A stretch of DNA of 34,062 nt from assembly GCA_024278345.1 (NCBI GenBank), contig JAJRTK010000230.1:1-34062 (forward strand). The letters are read 5' to 3'. The DNA is from a bacterium (GTDB taxonomy: Bacteria; CSSED10-310; JAJRTK01). Below are positions 2-29,403 of the stretch, one piece after another (the first letter of the stretch is position 1; each line of letters starts with the position of its first letter). The notes below the pieces were generated by a model. It was not told where the DNA came from, searched no databases, and worked only from the letters and a program-made list of their open reading frames with translations. A program made the position numbers and the translations under genes.

Positions 2-130
2 AAGCTGAGCCTGGACAAGGGCGTCCTGGTCATCTTCGACCGCCGCCCCGAAGCGGCTCCCATCGGGGAGCGCTCCAAGATGGAGAAGCTCCGCCACGGG
101 GACCGGGAGATCACCCTCCTCCGGTTGTAG
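2..130 (+). CDS. C-terminal fragment of a probable AAA-ATPase / PD-(D/E)XK nuclease-like protein (5' end outside window)
   Basis: Only the last 42 residues and the TAG stop are in the window; the reading frame is open from base 2. The peptide contains GVLVIFDRR followed by a charged tail ending in EITLLRL. A hydrophobic strand ending in L-V-x-F-D-R-R close to the C-terminus is what I recall at the end of the large family of bacterial AAA-type ATPases that carry a C-terminal PD-(D/E)XK nuclease-like domain, many of them selfish or toxin-like and often patchily distributed. No catalytic residue of that family is in view, so the assignment rests on one short motif. The next gene is convergent (M16 peptidase), and a 156-bp interspersed repeat begins 8 bases after this stop. 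Confidence 0.45.
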   Translation, partial: KLSLDKGVLVIFDRRPEAAPIGERSKMEKLRHGDREITLLRL

Positions 131-138
131 GGGGTGCT

Positions 139-294
139 CCAGCCCTAGGGCAATGGATCGAAGGCGGCCAAAAAGGCGAGCAGCGGGCGCCGCGGGGAAC
201 TCGCGCCACAGGCGCGGGTCGAATCGATGTGAGCGGAACGCAACACAAAGAAAACAAAGGGTTTGCCAACAACTGCGCCCTAAAAGAAGCGCAC
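139..294 (-). repeat. Interspersed repeat, copy A (156 bp, near-identical to copy D)
   Basis: The reverse complement of this stretch matches 25421-25576 over its full 156 bases with about seven mismatches and no gaps by eye. It fills most of the convergent space between the truncated gene ending at 130 and the M16 gene ending at 333. It contains TTTTCTTTGTGTTGCGTTCC and a GC-rich block with a small hairpin. I see no reading frame in it that resembles a protein. Confidence 0.85.
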
Positions 295-332
295 GGCCTG
301 AATTCCGGAAATGAGCAATGTGCAACAGACTC

Positions 333-18122: not shown

Positions 18123-20474
18123 TTACCGTCCACCAGAGTTTTCGCCTTCATCGACGACTGGTGGTGGCGGCTCCTCTCTATTCGGGTTTTCGTAGATCAC
18201 CTCGACCTCGCCTCCATTGGCGGCTGGATGTGAATTCTTTCCTGTTGCTGGAGTCTTGCCTGGTGCCTTTGAATCATGGGGGAAGATGAAGCTTGGTTCG
18301 TCCTCGCCAAAACTCATGGGGGAGTCAATCACCAACTTTGGTTCTTCGGGCTGCGGTGTTTCCTCGGTTTCTTCGCCAGCGGGTGACTGAGTATCCGCGG
18401 CTCGCCCGATTCTCTGCCGTTCGACAGAACTGATGTGGCCGACATCGACGGCCAATGACAAGAGCTCCATACCCTTGCTTGTCTGCCCGTGACTGAGGAG
18501 CTGGCGGCCAAGTATGTAGGCTGTTTTTCCAAGCCTCTTGTCTAATTCCGAGGACTGCGCTCCCAAATCGCGGGCCTCGCGGTACCGGTTCAATGCCGCA
18601 GCTATCTGTCCCTTGTCTTCCAGCTCCATTCCTTCGATGTAGTAGTCAGTCCCCAGCTCAGTACGAAACTCCGCCGCACGGAATGTTTTTTGCCCCGCAC
18701 GGTAGAGCTTGCGGGCGATAGAGTGCCGCCCCTGCCTACGGAAATGGTTGCCAAGCTCCTTGTAGAACGCGATCCCGAACTGTTTGGGGTTCTTCTGGTC
18801 AGCCTCCAGAAAAACTGGTCTCCCATTGTCCAATGCACCGCAAGACTCGCATCCTCGAACCACTTCCGCCACTTTGTCGAAGAGGATTCCATCGGGCAAT
18901 TCCAGCTCATGGGATTCCCGCGTACGCATCTCGGCCAGCAGGCTTCCGCCCACTCCCTCAAGGAATGCACGACTCATTTCCCTGTCCAGTGGCATTCCCA
19001 CCAAGCTGGCTGTCAATTGTCCTGTCTTTTCCCTGTAACGCAACATCAGAAACTGAACGGAATCGGGACCCAGAGCCAAAAAACCCAGAAAAACCGCCAA
19101 GATCAAGGCAAGGCAAGCCACCAATGGCCACAACGAATGCCGCGAGCCGGAAGTCTCGGATTTTTCCGCCTTCGGAGTTGTTGCCTTGCGCGGCGGTTCT
19201 TCGGCAGAAACCGTGGGAGGAGTTTTTTGGCGGGGCAGAGGCTGGGACTGCTTCGCCGAGGCTGGCGCGGACCGGCGCCCAAGGGTTGAACGAACCTCAT
19301 GGATTTGTCTTGCCGAAAGCCGTGTCGTGGAGTCCAGATCTTCATTGATCATTGCGCCAGATTGGAACGGCGCCGGGCTTTGTAACGAATCGCCACCGTT
19401 GCCTTGGTGCTCGGCAATCCTCTGAACGAGAGATTCCAACACGGCCATCGACTCGATTCCACTGCGCTGCAGGACTCTGTCCCCAGGATCGAGTCTTTCC
19501 ACCACGGGAGCCACAGGTTTGATGGGTATTTTTTCGTCCCCCAAACCCCCTCGTTCTTGAGCTGCGGTAGAGACGAGAGCCGTGGCGGAATCCACCGGCT
19601 TGCCCAAAATTCTATTGGTGTCGGGATAGAGCTCGAAGGTTGTCAAGACCTCGCTACCCTTCTCGGGGGGCTTGCCAAACTTGGCGCCGGTAAGAAGGAT
19701 GACCGTGACATTGTCTGGCGCGCCGTTCTCCTTGACCCGGTCCACCAGTATCCTGAGAGCGCTGTCGAGATCTCGGGCGTTTTTCTTGCAAATCTGAAAC
19801 GTCTGCTCATCGTTGATGACGCCGCAAAGACCATCGGAGCAAAGCAGATAGACTTCGTCCGTGCGAAGGTCGAGAATCTGGCAATCGACCTCCACGTGCG
19901 GACGGTTTCCCAGAGCTCGGGTGATGATATTCCGTCCAAGGATCGATTCGGCTTCTGACTCTGTCAGTTGTTTGGCATCGATGAGCTCTTGGACCCGCGA
20001 ATGGTCTTTGGTCACTCGCTGGACTCTTTCCCCGTCGAAGCGATAGAGGCGAGAATCCCCCACGTGCGCCACGAAACCCGTCTGCCCCATGATCCGCAAA
20101 GCAACGAGCGTTGTCCCCATGCCCCTCAGTTCGGCGTGTTCTTGCGCGTACTCGTAGATAGCGCGATTGGCGGCTTCCACAGCCTGCCGGAGCTTGTCCA
20201 ACTCCTCCAGCGGATCATGGGTCGGCGGCTGGGCTGCACGAGCTTCGTAGAAACTTTCCATCGTCTCTACGGCTAGACGGCTTGCGGTCTCACCGCCTGT
20301 ATGGCCACCCATCCCATCCGCGACAACGAAAAGATTGGTTTCCTCGTCGTACAGATAGCTGTCCTGGTTCGAGGAGCGCCTCAACCCAACGTCGGTGATC
20401 GCGCCTCCGGTATAGCGGAACATTCGCCAAGCGTCCCTTCTCGATTCATGAGAAAATCCCTCAGTGCTGCTCAT
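18123..20474 (-). CDS. PP2C-type Ser/Thr protein phosphatase with transmembrane helix and TPR-like C-terminal domain
   Basis: A 783-residue protein. The PP2C domain (about residues 22-265) has all metal-binding and catalytic motifs: RRSSNQDS, VVADGMGGHTGGE (D53), GMGTTLVAL, AHVGDSRLY, LLCSDGL and GAPDNVTVILL. It should dephosphorylate phosphoserine/threonine in the cytoplasm. A proline- and charge-rich linker (266-445) leads to one transmembrane helix (about 448-470), then about 310 residues that include TPR-like helices (NHFRRQGRHSIARKLYRAG, YIEGMELEDKGQIAAALNRY) and a polar tail. If the phosphatase is cytoplasmic, this tail is periplasmic. The ATG at 20474 has a weak ribosome-binding site; the ATG at 20423, just before the fold, has GAAGGGA upstream and is an alternative. 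FHA and kinase-like genes nearby suggest a phospho-signalling role. Confidence 0.93.
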   Translation of the reverse strand: MSSTEGFSHESRRDAWRMFRYTGGAITDVGLRRSSNQDSYLYDEETNLFVVADGMGGHTGGETASRLAVETMESFYEARAAQPPTHDPLEELDKLRQAVEAANRAIYEYAQEHAELRGMGTTLVALRIMGQTGFVAHVGDSRLYRFDGERVQRVTKDHSRVQELIDAKQLTESEAESILGRNIITRALGNRPHVEVDCQILDLRTDEVYLLCSDGLCGVINDEQTFQICKKNARDLDSALRILVDRVKENGAPDNVTVILLTGAKFGKPPEKGSEVLTTFELYPDTNRILGKPVDSATALVSTAAQERGGLGDEKIPIKPVAPVVERLDPGDRVLQRSGIESMAVLESLVQRIAEHQGNGGDSLQSPAPFQSGAMINEDLDSTTRLSARQIHEVRSTLGRRSAPASAKQSQPLPRQKTPPTVSAEEPPRKATTPKAEKSETSGSRHSLWPLVACLALILAVFLGFLALGPDSVQFLMLRYREKTGQLTASLVGMPLDREMSRAFLEGVGGSLLAEMRTRESHELELPDGILFDKVAEVVRGCESCGALDNGRPVFLEADQKNPKQFGIAFYKELGNHFRRQGRHSIARKLYRAGQKTFRAAEFRTELGTDYYIEGMELEDKGQIAAALNRYREARDLGAQSSELDKRLGKTAYILGRQLLSHGQTSKGMELLSLAVDVGHISSVERQRIGRAADTQSPAGEETEETPQPEEPKLVIDSPMSFGEDEPSFIFPHDSKAPGKTPATGKNSHPAANGGEVEVIYENPNREEPPPPVVDEGENSGGR

Positions 20475-20966: not shown

Positions 20967-23900
20967 TCAAGGTTCTTTTCCTTCCTGCAATCCGTCGATA
21001 TCATAACGTTTCATCATCCCCAATAATCCTTGACGCGTGATCCCCAAACGCCGGGCTGTTCGACTACGATTGTTTCCTTCCTTGCGAAGAGCTTCCCAGA
21101 TCATCCGTTTGTCCAGTGCTTCTCTTGCTTCCCTCAAGCTTGTGGAACGCGGTTGCACGCCGGGCGCGAAGACCTCTTGATCCTGGAACAGATGTTCTGG
21201 CTCAATCCACCCCTTCCGCGGCGCCACCAAGACGGCCCTGTGCAGGCAATTCCTCAGCTCCCGGAGATTCCCCGGCCAGGAATAGCCTGCCATCCTTGCC
21301 ACTGCCGCCGCTGAAATCCCCCGAAGTTGACGGCCTTCCGCCCGGCAAACCTCCCTGAAGAAGAACTGGCTGTAAGCCGGTATATCCGTTCTACGCTCCC
21401 TCAATGGCGGAACCTTCAAGAGTAGCCCGGAAAGCCGATAATAGAGATCTTTCCGAAACCGACCCATGGAGCTTTCTTTGGCAAGATCTCTGTTCGTCGC
21501 CAGAATGACTCGAACATTCGCCTGTTTTCTAGCGGTCGAACCCACCATGTGATAGCTCTTATTTTGCAAAAAGACCAGCAGTTTTTGCTGAACTTCAGGG
21601 CCGATATCCCCGATTTCGTCCAGGAACAAAGTTCCCCCTTCGGCGGCGGCGATAAAGCCTTCTTTTCGCTCTGCCGCGCCTGTGAAGGCGCCCTTTTCGT
21701 GGCCAAACAAGATGGAGGAGACAAGCTCTTTTGGTTCGGACGCCAGATCGACCTGCAAGAATTTCCCGCTCTTGCGCCGACTCATCTCGTGGATTTTCCG
21801 AGCCAAATGTGATTTGCCGACGCCACTCTCCCCAAGGAGCAAAACATGGTCGTCGGAACGGGCAAGAACCTCGGCCAATTCCAGGACTCGGCGCATGGCC
21901 TCGGAGCGTCCTGGCAGGAAATCTTCGTTCGCCTCAGAAGAGTTCCAAGAGGGGCTTCTCCCGGAATCAGCATCACGAGCCCGGAGAAGCGCTGTTGCGG
22001 CGAAAGCGGAATAGGTCCCGAAAAAATCCGAAAAACCATCACCAAAGGAGTATCGACCACGGAGAAACAAGTAGCCCAGAGGCACATGACCCTCGAGCAG
22101 ACCGCAGATCCACGTATGTTTTGATACCGATTCGCAGCGCCGGGGAACGCGGCCAAGCTCGGTCACGTCGATGGAGATGGGAGGGGCGGCGGGACCAGAA
22201 AGAACCTCGGCAGTAACAGGATCGAGCAGTGTCAAATGAACTTCTTCTACTCCTGGTAATTCCTCCAAACCATCGACCACCCAGCGTTGGACAGCATTCG
22301 GTTCCCAGGTTTTTTTCAGCAGCTCTCCCAGTCCTACTAGAGCTTCCAAGAAGACGACCGGCCCCAATTCTTGCGCATCCAGGTTCAATGCCGGATCCAG
22401 GCCATCTTGCAGGCTAGCCACGAGCAGAGGAGCCCGCGCAAGAAGCTCAAAGCCCTTTTGCAGGACATTTACAGCTCTGCGGCGTCGGCCGCACCTCAGC
22501 ACGGCCTTCGCCTGATGCACCATGAGCAACCCCCGCCGGTAGCTGGAGTTCAGGGGGCCCGTGAGCTTCAGTCCTTCTTGAAAACTCAGGACGGCCTTCG
22601 CGGGGTCACCTCTTTTGAGATCCAAAAGGCCAAGGGCTTCCCAATAGACGGGATCGACCGGGGAATCAAGACTTTCCAGAATACCGGCTGCAACATCGAG
22701 CTTGCCCTCCATGACCTCGGCAAGGGCGCTGGTAGATAGGTAGGCCTCTCGCCGAAATCCCGAACGAGGAGCCTCAAGCCCCTCCAAAATTTTCTTCGCG
22801 GCCTCAGGCAATCCATGATCGGCAAGGAGCAACGCTTCGTCCAACCCAATCTGGCAATGGATACTAATTTCCCGTGCATCTAGGTTTTCTCGCGCACGCA
22901 AAAACCACTTCCGTGCCTCAACCAACCGGCCTTCATCGCCGTAGATAGTGCCCATGAGCCCCATGGTCCTTGCCCGAAATGAAGAAGCCAGGGGCTGCCG
23001 CAATAATTCCTCGAGCTCGCTTCGAGCGGCTTCGATCTGCTCCATCAAAAAGAGGACGCGTGCCAGGTTGAAACGTGCTTGAGCGGCGTGGGTCCGGAGT
23101 CCTTGACGCAGGGCCAATTCAAGAGCGCGGCGGTGCGATTCCAGGGCATCATCGTAGGCGTCGCGGGCGATTTCCAGCTCGCCGAGCTTGGTCAACAAGC
23201 TCACCTGCTGTGGATCATCGGAAGACAATGATTTCAAAGTGTTTTTCAGCTTTTCAACCCCCTTTGTTCCTTTCCCCAGGCGTCTTTCGAGATCGGCTTG
23301 AATCGACATGAACCGCGTCATCGCCACGGCATCTGCATGAGTGCCCAGCGCCGTTGTGGCAGAAGAAAGCCATTTCGACGCCTCGGCAAGTCTCGATTGC
23401 TGACAACAGACCTGAACGAGGTCCAATGCCAGGGCCAAGATCTGCCGGCCGGTCAGGTTGTCACGCGACCTCCACGCCTGGCTCAACTCCGAATGTGCGT
23501 TGTCGAAAAGACTCTGACGGAAAAACACCTGGCCCAGCCGCAACCGAAGGGGTGCTATCTCTGCCTGGGCTGCTCGATCCAGGAGCTCCGAACAGAGATC
23601 TGTCGCCTTTTCGAAGAGCTCCGCGGATTCTAGGAGCTCCAGTCTTCGCTCACCGTTCAGGGTTCCCAGTTCTCTTGAATGATCGGCGATCAAAGCCCGA
23701 GCCTTCTCTAAGTCTCCCGCGGAGGCCATGCCCAGAATGACCTCAGAAAGCAATTCTGGGCGAACCTCGCCAGCTTGAAGAAGATGCTCGTTCAACGAAA
23801 AAGGCGGGTTATCATCTCCCAAAGCTCCAATTTCCAAGAGAAATGCCAGTGTTCCGTGAAGGCGTCGAAGCTCCTCTTCCGGCACATTTTGTTTGATGAG

Positions 23901-25361
23901 ATCTATCAAACGGGGGTGAAGGATGGCGTAAGATTCGGCTCCCGTGTCCGGCGCGGATTCGCAGACCAGGAGGCCCTGGCGAAGGAGCTCCCTAACCGCC
24001 TCCGCCGGAGGACGCTCCCAGGAGTCTCCACCGTTTCTATTGGCCGCCTGAAGAACGGCCAGCAGCTCTTCCAGGGAGTGTGGAGCCGATCCCAACGACA
24101 AGATCCGAAGCAAGTCTAATTCTGGCGAAGGCAACCTGTTGAAAAGCGCCGGGAGCGCCTTTTCCAGATCGCGCCCGCGATCTTTCTCCAGAGCCGGAAT
24201 CCGGGTTCTCCACCGCCAGGGTTCGCGGATCTCCTTGGCCTGGACTTTCCACCAGGTCTCCAGATGCTGACAGGAAAGCAGTAAGATGAAATCATCTCGT
24301 TGCCGTGCAAGATCCAGGAGCAACCTCTGGCTCGGGAAGTCGGCCCGGTCAAATCCAAAGACGACTGCCACCCATGGATTTTGCGCGCTGGTGTCTGAGA
24401 TTTTCTTTTCGAGATCCTCTCTGAGAAAGGCGTAGCTCGCCTTTTTTCCTGTATGCCCGTAACGTTCCCATGGCGGAAGCATGGCCTTTACCACGCCAAA
24501 CGGAGCGGTCCCATACCGATCTGCCGACAGATGGATGACTTTGTGTGAAGCAAGGCTAGAGGCGACAGCCTGGAGGGCGAATCTGGCGTCTTGGCCCACG
24601 AAGGCCAAGGGCGCCTTCTCTTTCGCCAGCCAGGAAAGGGCAAATCCGACTGCCTGCGACGACTCGGCGGGAGAAGGGCCGCTGGCACGGCCTTGAAGGG
24701 AGCTCCAAGCTGTTTTTGCACTGGGGCGAATATCGGGGTCTAGGGAGAGTAACCTCCCCAAACCCAGAAGAGAATCCAGTTGTTCCTGGGCTGTTCGTTG
24801 TGACGGATCAATTCCTGCGAGGGCACTCAGAATGGCTCCCGCGGAATAGATATCGCCACTTGGGGACCGGGGCATCCCCAAACGCATTTCCGGGGCTGTG
24901 AACTTTCCTTCCAGGCAACCGGGAGAAGCCGCGAAAGCATATAGGCCTCCGAGCTGAAATTGATCGGGCGTGGGCCGAAAGAGAAATTCCGGGCAGAGAG
25001 CACCGTGTACCAGGCCTTTCTCGTGAAGTTGGGCCAGAGTTTTCAGAAGTCCCGCCGCAACTTTCCGAAGCTCGTCTTTTTGAAAGACGGCCCCTTCCAG
25101 TGACTGTCCGCCCGGCTTCTCGACAACGTAAAAGCTTCGGTTGAACCATTTTCCCCAGTCGAGCCAGGAAAGGCAGCCTGGTGCCATCTTCCTCAAAAGG
25201 TGGGCTCTTTGCTGGAGGGCCTTCCAGCGGTCTTCCGTGGGTTCGACACTCAGGACGTGAACCAGGCATTCCTCGCCTTCCGGCGACTTTCCTTGGTAGG
25301 TCGTCCCAAACCATCTTTGGCAAAGAGCGCCAACGATTCGATGACCCTGCTTCAAGCGCAT
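20967..25361 (-). CDS. Giant regulator: degenerate protein kinase, ATPase-like region, TPRs, GAF-like region, sigma-54 AAA+ and Fis HTH
   Basis: A 1464-residue protein. Residues ~10-220 have the kinase fold (FYVVEKPGGQSLEG hinge, TAPEM, GDIYSAGAIL, DIRPSA), but the active site is lost: the HRD-K-N loop reads VHGALCPEFLF, no DFG is seen, and the usual lysine strand reads LVHVL. A degenerate STAND/AAA-like segment and many TPR-like repeats follow (about 230-950), then a probable GAF domain (about 980-1120). The C-terminal module is an intact bacterial enhancer-binding protein: Walker A GESGVGKS (~1177), GAFTGA (~1224), Walker B TLFLDE (~1244), the later block SWPGNLRELRN, and a Fis-type HTH (NNRSRTARRLGITRQGLLGM). 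It should activate sigma-54 promoters in response to an unknown signal. The ATG at 25361 has GGAG 11 bases upstream; a TTG at 25397 is an alternative. Confidence 0.9.
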   Translation of the reverse strand: MRLKQGHRIVGALCQRWFGTTYQGKSPEGEECLVHVLSVEPTEDRWKALQQRAHLLRKMAPGCLSWLDWGKWFNRSFYVVEKPGGQSLEGAVFQKDELRKVAAGLLKTLAQLHEKGLVHGALCPEFLFRPTPDQFQLGGLYAFAASPGCLEGKFTAPEMRLGMPRSPSGDIYSAGAILSALAGIDPSQRTAQEQLDSLLGLGRLLSLDPDIRPSAKTAWSSLQGRASGPSPAESSQAVGFALSWLAKEKAPLAFVGQDARFALQAVASSLASHKVIHLSADRYGTAPFGVVKAMLPPWERYGHTGKKASYAFLREDLEKKISDTSAQNPWVAVVFGFDRADFPSQRLLLDLARQRDDFILLLSCQHLETWWKVQAKEIREPWRWRTRIPALEKDRGRDLEKALPALFNRLPSPELDLLRILSLGSAPHSLEELLAVLQAANRNGGDSWERPPAEAVRELLRQGLLVCESAPDTGAESYAILHPRLIDLIKQNVPEEELRRLHGTLAFLLEIGALGDDNPPFSLNEHLLQAGEVRPELLSEVILGMASAGDLEKARALIADHSRELGTLNGERRLELLESAELFEKATDLCSELLDRAAQAEIAPLRLRLGQVFFRQSLFDNAHSELSQAWRSRDNLTGRQILALALDLVQVCCQQSRLAEASKWLSSATTALGTHADAVAMTRFMSIQADLERRLGKGTKGVEKLKNTLKSLSSDDPQQVSLLTKLGELEIARDAYDDALESHRRALELALRQGLRTHAAQARFNLARVLFLMEQIEAARSELEELLRQPLASSFRARTMGLMGTIYGDEGRLVEARKWFLRARENLDAREISIHCQIGLDEALLLADHGLPEAAKKILEGLEAPRSGFRREAYLSTSALAEVMEGKLDVAAGILESLDSPVDPVYWEALGLLDLKRGDPAKAVLSFQEGLKLTGPLNSSYRRGLLMVHQAKAVLRCGRRRRAVNVLQKGFELLARAPLLVASLQDGLDPALNLDAQELGPVVFLEALVGLGELLKKTWEPNAVQRWVVDGLEELPGVEEVHLTLLDPVTAEVLSGPAAPPISIDVTELGRVPRRCESVSKHTWICGLLEGHVPLGYLFLRGRYSFGDGFSDFFGTYSAFAATALLRARDADSGRSPSWNSSEANEDFLPGRSEAMRRVLELAEVLARSDDHVLLLGESGVGKSHLARKIHEMSRRKSGKFLQVDLASEPKELVSSILFGHEKGAFTGAAERKEGFIAAAEGGTLFLDEIGDIGPEVQQKLLVFLQNKSYHMVGSTARKQANVRVILATNRDLAKESSMGRFRKDLYYRLSGLLLKVPPLRERRTDIPAYSQFFFREVCRAEGRQLRGISAAAVARMAGYSWPGNLRELRNCLHRAVLVAPRKGWIEPEHLFQDQEVFAPGVQPRSTSLREAREALDKRMIWEALRKEGNNRSRTARRLGITRQGLLGMMKRYDIDGLQEGKEP

Positions 25362-25719
25362 TCCGGTGCATTCTCCTTCACTGCGGCAAGAAAACAACTA
25401 GCGGTTATGGTTTTCCGGTCGTGCTCTTCTTTTCGGGCGCAGTTATTGGCAAACCCTTTGTTTTCTTTGTGTTGCGTTCCGCTCACATCGGTTCGACCCG
25501 CGCCTGTGGCGCGAGTTCCCCGCGGCGCCCGCTCCTCGCCTTTGTCGCCGCCTTCGATCCATTGCCCTAGGGCTGGATCACCACCGGCGGATGGCTTTTC
25601 GACCGCCGCACTGGCGGCGGCGGAGGGAGATCTGCTTCTGAGTCAGCCGCGATTCCAAGACTCGGGTATCACAGTTTTCACAGAACCTCGCCGAACCCAA
25701 TGCGGTGGCGAATCCTGGG
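25362..25719. other. 358-bp intergenic region between glyA and the sigma-54 regulator gene
   Basis: Nearly half is repeat copy D (25421-25576). The part between the repeat and the glyA stop has a short GC hairpin (CCGCC / GGCGG near 25602-25616) without a T-tract. The 59 bases next to the regulator start show no promoter I can recognise, so its promoter may lie inside the repeat. Confidence 0.5.
25421..25576 (+). repeat. Interspersed repeat, copy D (156 bp, near-identical inverted partner of copy A)
   Basis: It matches the reverse complement of 139-294 over 156 bases with about seven mismatches, all substitutions. It contains AAACCCTTTGTTTTCTTTG, the shared core TTCCGCTCACATCGG, the hairpin CGCGCC-TGT-GGCGCG and GCTCCTCGCC, then ends CCATTGCCCTAGGGCTGG. 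It lies directly upstream of the large sigma-54 regulator gene. The match to copy A effectively ends with the repeat. Confidence 0.85.
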
Positions 25720-28019: not shown

Positions 28020-28406
28020 CTAGACTAGGGCCAAATGAGTGAATTGCTTATAATACTGGACCACGGAGAAGGAAATGGACTGGATCGAAGCCTTGATTTC
28101 ATTCAGGTCCAGGTTTTCTGACTCCAAGACATCGATGAGAACGACATATTTGTCATGGATGCCGAAGGCGCCATGGGTGACATCCTGGACGTTCGCCTCT
28201 AGCAAACGGCGGTAAAAGGACGCATCCACGTCATCGGGGATCTTCATCAGTCTGACTTCGACGATGACGACGGGTTGGACGTGGCTGACAACGATGCCCT
28301 CCACCCGATCCTCCGGCACATCCACCTTCCAGATGCCTTCGTCGAGTTTTTCGTAGCGAAATTGGCATTTGTCGAGGTAGATCTCGATATCTTCGTTCCT
28401 GATCAT
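28020..28406 (-). CDS. YbjN-like small protein
   Basis: A 128-residue soluble protein with an alternating helix-strand pattern like the YbjN / type III secretion chaperone-like fold: an N-terminal helix (NEDIEIYLDKCQFRYEKL), strands with VSHVQPVVIVEVRLMKIP, a helix with ASFYRRLLEANVQD, then HGAFGIHDKYVVLIDVLES and a C-terminal helix. There is no catalytic motif. Members are thought to act as chaperone- or regulator-like proteins, but the biochemical function is unknown. The ATG at 28406 has a near-perfect GGAGGT 7 bases upstream, which rules out the longer frame starting 99 bases earlier. It is divergent from pspA. Confidence 0.7.
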   Translation of the reverse strand: MIRNEDIEIYLDKCQFRYEKLDEGIWKVDVPEDRVEGIVVSHVQPVVIVEVRLMKIPDDVDASFYRRLLEANVQDVTHGAFGIHDKYVVLIDVLESENLDLNEIKASIQSISFSVVQYYKQFTHLALV

Positions 28407-28468
28407 GCGGTTACCTCCAAACCAAGGCGCGGCCATCTGCCGCGAAAGGTCGCCTTCCAATCCTCCAC

Positions 28469-28496
28469 AGTATAGGAGTGCAAGCTCCGAGGGCAA
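28469..28496 (-). promoter_or_regulatory. Candidate sigma-70-type promoter of the YbjN-like gene
   Basis: On the minus strand TTGCCC (28491-28496), a 16-bp spacer and TATACT (28469-28474; 5 of 6 consensus positions) precede the gene with a leader of about 55 bases. The leader also holds a short hairpin (GCGG / CCGC). Confidence 0.4.
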
Positions 28497-28567
28497 TCGT
28501 CCCATTCACTGCTCGATGACGGAACACCCATCCAGCAAGGGGAGGGTTTGGATCGGGCAATCAGAGA

Positions 28568-28597
28568 TTGACACGCGCTCCCTCTCTTTTCTATCGT
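28568..28597 (+). promoter_or_regulatory. Candidate sigma-70-type promoter of pspA
   Basis: A perfect -35 TTGACA (28568-28573), an 18-bp spacer and TATCGT (28592-28597; 4 of 6 positions) lie about 60 bases upstream of the pspA ATG. I saw no -24/-12 element here, although pspA is sigma-54-dependent in enterobacteria. Confidence 0.4.
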
Positions 28598-28659
28598 TGC
28601 CCGGAGCGGTTCAATCCAGCGTACGACAAACGGTCGGCCAGTGTCGGATAGGGTGTGCC

Positions 28660-29403
28660 ATGTCGGGGTTCTTACAACGCATCATCGATCTCATTCGCGC
28701 TAGCCTGAACAGTCTCATTGACAAGGCCGAAGATCCAGAAAAGATGCTCGAGCAGATGATGCGCGACATGCAAGCCAACTACCGCCGATCCAAAATCGAA
28801 GTGGCCAAAGTTCTGGCGGAAAAGCACCGGCTTCGTGCCCAGATGGAAAGATCCGAAAAGGACAGTACGGCTTGGGAACGTAAAGCGGTTCTTGCTCTCA
28901 AGGCGGGCGACGAAGGTTTGGCCAGGAAGGCGTTGGAGCGAAAGCGAGCTTCCAAGGAGTTGGCGACGGGCCTTTCCGGTCAGTACGAAGAGCAGGCATT
29001 AGCTGCGGATCGGCTTCTCCAGGCTCTCACAGCCCTGGAGAACAAAATCGCCGAAGTGCGGGTCAAGCGTTCTCTTCTTTCGAGCCGCCATCGCCGAGCT
29101 CTGGCTCAGCAAAAGATCCAGAAGGCCTTAGAGCTTTCATGCGGCCCCACCGCATTCGATTCCATCGCCCGGCTCGAAGCGCACGTGGAAGATTTGGAAG
29201 CTGAAACTACCGCAGTTTCCGAGCTAAAGGAAGCGACTTTGGAGGGGCGCTTTCTCAAACTTGGTGAAGTCGATGTAGAAAGCGATCTCTTGGCGTTGAA
29301 GTCCCGCCTGGCGGAACCGGCTCTCCTTGCCAGCTCGAGCTCCGGCGAAGCCATGGAGCCCGGAACACAGCCAAGCGCGACGGAGAAAGCTGAACTGATC
29401 TAG
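28660..29403 (+). CDS. pspA: PspA/IM30 family membrane-stress protein
   Basis: A 247-residue protein of the PspA/Vipp1 (ESCRT-III-like) family, which binds and stabilises stressed inner membranes. The N-terminal amphipathic helix MSGFLQRIIDLIRASLNSLI is followed by the family hallmark EDPEKMLEQMMRDMQANYRR. Long coiled-coil helices run from about residue 30 to 190. The C-terminal 40 residues are serine/alanine-rich and unlike the core. The ATG at 28660 has a modest ribosome-binding site (AGGG); the frame is open further upstream but the protein clearly starts here. No pspB, pspC or pspF gene is adjacent. It is convergent with the FHA genes, and a run of nine C follows the stop. Confidence 0.93.
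   Translation: MSGFLQRIIDLIRASLNSLIDKAEDPEKMLEQMMRDMQANYRRSKIEVAKVLAEKHRLRAQMERSEKDSTAWERKAVLALKAGDEGLARKALERKRASKELATGLSGQYEEQALAADRLLQALTALENKIAEVRVKRSLLSSRHRRALAQQKIQKALELSCGPTAFDSIARLEAHVEDLEAETTAVSELKEATLEGRFLKLGEVDVESDLLALKSRLAEPALLASSSSGEAMEPGTQPSATEKAELI

Follow-up and report, generated by a model that had tools for sequence, protein, structure and literature searches.

A sigma-54 activator gene with a predicted, catalytically degenerate kinase fold at its N-terminus

The locus and its gene

The window is the whole stretch of DNA that was analysed, 34,062 nucleotides long. Its minus strand carries a gene for a 1464-aa protein in which a pseudokinase fold is followed by a degenerate STAND-type region, a winged helix, a TPR array, a GAF domain, a sigma-54 AAA+ module and a Fis-type helix-turn-helix (HTH) (Table 1). 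The boundaries agree exactly with those of a first-pass annotation, which had left the strand unstated. The 1464 codons contain no internal stop, and a GAAGGAG ribosome-binding-like site lies ∼11 nt upstream of the ATG at 25361; an in-frame TTG upstream, at 25397, is a possible alternative start. Codon-position GC was coding-like across every segment of the gene, which therefore shows no sign of decay. No transmembrane-like segment was seen in the protein (the maximum 19-residue hydropathy is 1.22).

Table 1. Features of the pseudokinase-sigma-54 gene and its downstream neighbour, in window coordinates
Feature	Residues	Position	Strand	Basis or remark
Whole gene, pseudokinase-(degenerate STAND)-WH-TPR-GAF-sigma54-HTH		20967..25361	-	1464 aa
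Predicted pseudokinase fold	1-228	24678..25361	-	Alignment A5; predicted model; PknA match
VAIK position, ECLVHVLS		25248..25271	-	Lys to His35; alignment A5, motif location
HRD loop, HGALCPEF		24984..25007	-	Asp to Ala121, Asn to Phe126; alignment A5, motif location
DFG position, QLGGLY		24939..24956	-	Asp lost; alignment A5, motif location
NTPase-like region by position	229-405	24147..24677	-	No P-loop, Walker B Asp lost; low-confidence model
Winged-helix region	406-540	23742..24146	-	BLAST to L122; hhalign against shuffles
TPR array	541-985	22407..23741	-	TPR_12 6.6e-13 and others
Shortened GAF domain (predicted)	986-1145	21927..22406	-	Predicted model pLDDT 75.8; top match Nlh1 GAF
Sigma-54 AAA+ module		21156..21923	-	PF00158 3.9e-58, motifs
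Walker A	1177-1184	21810-21833	-	Motif in sigma-54 AAA+ module
GAFTGA	1224-1229	21675-21692	-	Motif in sigma-54 AAA+ module
Fis-type HTH, NRSRTARRLGITRQGLLGMMKRYDI		20997..21071	-	HTH_8 (PF02954) 4e-8
PP2C phosphatase with TPR		18123..20474	-	Next gene downstream; PF13672 2e-17; 492 bp gap; context only

We noted a repeated intergenic element of ∼173 bp, one copy of which ends 51 bp upstream of the ATG. The two copies in the window, at 130-302 (+) and 25413-25585 (-), are 94% identical; their ends are sharply defined, and the inverted repeats at the termini (GGTGGTGCTC / GAGCACGACC) are imperfect. A first look at the genome gave 353 candidates, and the genome has at least 41 matches. The element contains no ORF and has no Rfam match; it resembles MITE- or REP-type elements.

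Also in the window, at 28405-29403 (+) and 3 kb from the activator gene, is a PspA/IM30 gene. In enterobacteria PspA is under the control of the sigma-54 activator PspF. Regulation of the nearby pspA by the 1464-aa protein was considered by this analogy and set aside as unsupported, no sigma-54 promoter standing out; the window holds 16 sigma-54 promoter-like sites where 14.8 are expected, which is the chance level. A small protein encoded at 28020-28505 (-) matches the type III chaperone-like CesT_Tir_1 profile (E 4.8e-23).

Domains of the 1464-aa protein

When the whole protein was scanned with Pfam, the TPRs, the sigma-54 AAA+ domain with its lid and the HTH were all detected. In addition to the motifs in Table 1, the protein has Walker B, arginine-finger and sensor II motifs, and the enhancer-binding module is intact, GAFTGA included, as the first-pass annotation had stated. 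With this module and a Fis-type HTH, and with rpoN encoded in the same genome (491-aa frame, E 8.8e-65), the protein has the hallmarks of a sigma-54 enhancer-binding protein. Among the ∼27 sigma-54 modules of the genome, it is the sole full-strength match in a frame of more than 700 residues.

The preceding region, earlier called GAF-like, matched no Pfam or family-HMM profile as a GAF domain, and it is ∼35-40 residues short in the middle relative to ordinary GAF domains. The predicted fold bore the name out: a model of residues 975-1150, whose input alignment held true family members and so helped the fold to appear, had GAF domains as its best matches, the first being that of Nlh1, an NtrC-like protein from Aquifex (E 1.2e-5). 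As modelled, residues 986-1145 are a GAF fold.

At the N-terminus, the Pkinase match fell below threshold, with E 0.0048 for the whole protein and 1.2e-4 for residues 1-233 alone (22 bits against a cut-off of 31.7); the genome has 129 Pkinase matches, and this protein is the weakest among the matches listed. The closest kinase domains are ordinary kinases with 25-36% identity. A predicted model of residues 1-580, built from 24 kinase-STAND rows, had pLDDT values of mostly 85-97 at residues 1-220; its confidence was low for a large part of 226-452. Its top solved-structure match was Mycobacterium tuberculosis PknA (Z 24.2, rmsd 2.4 Å, 227 residues aligned), and the model places a bilobal protein kinase fold at residues 1-228; its input alignment held true kinases, which favours the appearance of such a fold. 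The search with the 580-residue model probes the kinase part only, and missing STAND matches there carry no meaning.

The active site was read from an alignment of this domain with eleven related kinase domains (alignment A5). Besides the replacements of Table 1, where the HRD position is H119-G-A and DFG reads LGGLY with Gly for Asp, the Gly loop (GALCQRWFG) has lost two of its three glycines. None of the three residues expected of an active Ser/Thr kinase (VAIK Lys, HRD Asp, DFG Asp) is present, and no intact counterpart was found at a misread position. His119, Pro124, Pro157-Glu158, Asp170, Tyr172, Gly175 and Arg212 are kept. The first-pass annotation had named as lost the HRD Asp, DFG and probably the ATP Lys, and as kept APE, the DxYSxG block and a late Arg; both lists stood up to the alignment. 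A second alignment (A2) covered ten proteins of the same kinase-to-sigma-54 architecture and left out the 1464-aa protein; none of the ten departs from the Lys, the HxD Asp or the DFG Asp. Therefore, the loss of catalytic residues is real and specific to the 1464-aa protein. Alignment, predicted model and motifs together support a catalytically dead kinase fold joined to an intact sigma-54 activator.

Unusual kinases can nonetheless bind nucleotide or transfer other groups. An altered pocket that binds nucleotide differently and performs another transfer, as in SelO or SidJ, would have precedent among other pseudokinases (PMC12599244). SelO and SidJ, however, retain the Lys and a DFG-type Asp (table in PMC12599244), which weakens the precedent for the 1464-aa protein, where the Lys, both Asp residues, the Asn and two of three loop glycines are gone. 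We consider an active non-canonical enzyme very improbable.

The earlier domain list had overlooked residues 229-540, the positions at which kinase-STAND relatives have an AAA_16 STAND ATPase and then a winged helix. In alignment A5 the P-loop position of residues 229-405 reads GQDARFAL and the Walker B position VVFGFDRAD. The hhalign comparisons were run without the query in the profile and are read as relative scores, absolute E-values being uncalibrated (shuffled sequences look strong too). On this scale the NTPase profile signal of residues 229-405 was no better than that of shuffles, and it is from position and predicted alpha/beta elements that we infer a decayed STAND domain. The winged-helix part scored about 170, where shuffled sequence reached 133-143, and by BLAST residues 454-628 align with a relative from another phylum (L122, E 3e-8). 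A winged-helix region is common to the kinase-STAND-TPR-GAF-sigma-54 proteins.

Relatives and named systems

Direct search of genome contigs found no relatives of the whole 1464-aa protein, and among 386 genomes there was no ortholog, all matches being partial ones to the kinase, winged helix or TPRs. A family HMM matched residues 1-1145 with E 8.9e-20, and five shuffles gave no match. Searching for the same domain order, we found nine more kinase-STAND-TPR-GAF-sigma-54-HTH proteins in two other phyla, eight in one (L123, of 1488 aa, L147-L152 and L154) and L122 in the second; the Pfam scan among them covered L122 and L123, and L123 carries GAFTGA. Their domain order is that of the 1464-aa protein, but all nine keep the Lys, HxD Asp and DFG Asp that it has lost. 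L122 (1015-6519, +) has a live kinase and an intact AAA_16, but its output loop is altered and reads GTATGV where GAFTGA is expected, the opposite case to the 1464-aa protein; sigma-54 may not be the target of L122.

Within the phylum of the window's genome, L063, from another genome, has the order kinase-TPR-GAF-sigma-54 with the Lys and Asp residues kept. It was rejected as an ortholog, pairwise alignment of the N-terminal halves not being meaningful (BLAST E 0.46), and is counted as a same-architecture protein only.

A milder pseudokinase version is encoded in Deltaproteobacteria bacterium 13_1_40CM_4_68_19 (L184, 1829 aa, MNFJ01000051.1). Like the 1464-aa protein, it joins in a single frame a pseudokinase, GAF, a sigma-54 module with GAFTGA and HTH_8, with AAA_16 following the kinase. 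In contrast to the 1464-aa protein, it keeps the Lys (VLLK), a DFG-type Asp (DFS) and an intact AAA_16 P-loop; its HRD loop, HQNINPRS, has Asn for the Asp and Ser for the Asn.

The first-pass description of the architecture as uncommon thus holds in part. The domain order occurs with intact kinases in at least two other phyla, and in similar form in L063, whereas the total loss of catalytic residues is without counterpart in these relatives. In the 1464-aa protein, the design that couples a kinase to a sigma-54 activator is present in an unusually decayed form, which makes a good test case rather than a novel type of system.

Among named families, that of the CP1 pseudokinase-COG3899-FhlA proteins comes closest. 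About 40% of CP1 kinases are degraded, and the pseudokinases among them invariably carry COG3899 and frequently FhlA as well (2025 review, PMC12599244). One member, Leptospira Q8F6Y5, departs in all three motifs (KILR, Hnqigpss and WLG; PMC12599244). Like the 1464-aa protein, CP1 pseudokinases are soluble and have an N-terminal kinase fold with degraded VAIK, HRD and DFG (PMC12599244). Their kinase is joined to a STAND-type ATPase-TPR block; in our protein the presence of such a block is uncertain: the winged helix and TPRs give matches, but the NTPase region, with no P-loop and a signal within shuffles, is unrecognisable. The output also differs, being a complete sigma-54 AAA+ domain with a Fis HTH, and the 'FhlA' label of the review may not cover sigma-54 modules. 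The 1464-aa protein is like an extreme CP1 relative; because the COG3899 ATPase is unrecognisable, we treat it as a candidate for that family and not as an established member. Activators of the NorR/NifA/Nlh1 type share the C-terminal GAF-AAA+-HTH order, but lack the kinase, STAND or TPR sensor ahead of it. Literature searches found no experimental study of a pseudokinase-sigma-54 fusion.

Proposed function and alternatives

We interpret the 1464-aa protein as a sigma-54 activator that does not phosphorylate, its pseudokinase-TPR block serving as a putative binding sensor and its GAF domain as a putative gate of the AAA+ ring, a reading to which we assign a probability of about 0.6. It would be a cytosolic enhancer-binding protein that keeps the kinase-STAND-TPR-GAF-sigma-54 design minus the kinase chemistry, with the STAND NTPase chemistry most likely lost as well. 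The pseudokinase and TPR solenoid would bind a partner protein or ligand, and binding would be relayed through the GAF domain, which may otherwise keep the AAA+ ring inactive. In NorR, the GAF domain represses the AAA+ ring until the signal arrives (PMC2941729). The released hexamer would then remodel RNA polymerase-sigma-54 at those enhancers to which the Fis HTH binds, the 1464-aa protein performing no phosphotransfer. It is plausible, as suggested earlier, that the pseudokinase has a ligand or a second kinase as its binding partner and that it regulates transcription with no phosphotransfer step. The stronger proposal, that the whole ancestral front end (kinase and STAND NTPase) is now a non-catalytic binding sensor and that the pseudokinase gates transcription directly, again without phosphotransfer, is tentative.

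The main rival holds that the kinase and NTPase domains are passive evolutionary leftovers and that TPR and GAF alone sense. Three TPR-sigma-54 activators of the same phylum have no kinase match (L060, L069 and L073). In two of them, L060 and L069, the family HMM finds the winged helix and the TPRs that follow, so the design can do without its kinase; in the 1464-aa protein, the NTPase region has itself changed beyond recognition. However, the structural residues of the kinase fold are kept, the fold is confidently predicted, the frame is open and the coding signal is uniform. On this evidence a remnant seems unlikely, and the sensing role of the pseudokinase-TPR block is preferred.

Weaker still is a phospho-relay through the PP2C and FHA genes, in which the pseudokinase would be a phospho-acceptor or docking platform recruiting one of the active Ser/Thr kinases of the genome and the neighbouring PP2C would reverse the mark. 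The many Pkinase matches in the genome, the PP2C gene next downstream and an FHA gene 4 kb upstream are consistent with such a relay, but the intergenic distance to the PP2C gene is wide (Table 1), the window contains no other kinase gene, and genomes of this type commonly carry PP2C and FHA genes. We regard it as improbable beside the reading of a non-phosphorylating activator.

Bacterial pseudokinases are widespread, and very few have a known output. Where, as here, a transcription activator provides the output, the readout is simple and the signalling role of a pseudokinase becomes measurable with a reporter gene. The assembled set (intact, mildly pseudo-, fully dead and no kinase) forms a natural series in which to ask what this fold still adds after catalysis is lost.

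The window's genome encodes a second, milder pseudokinase candidate (L093, 1127-5656, -), a 1510-aa frame with the order kinase-AAA_16-TPR and no sigma-54 module; its HRD loop reads HQALKPSN, with Ala for the Asp, and VAVK and DFG are kept. The 129 Pkinase matches also include some 20 long kinase-TPR proteins (1200-1440 aa; e.g. L075-L092). In these the match falls into two parts around profile positions 90-102, which suggests a shared insert in the kinase domain.
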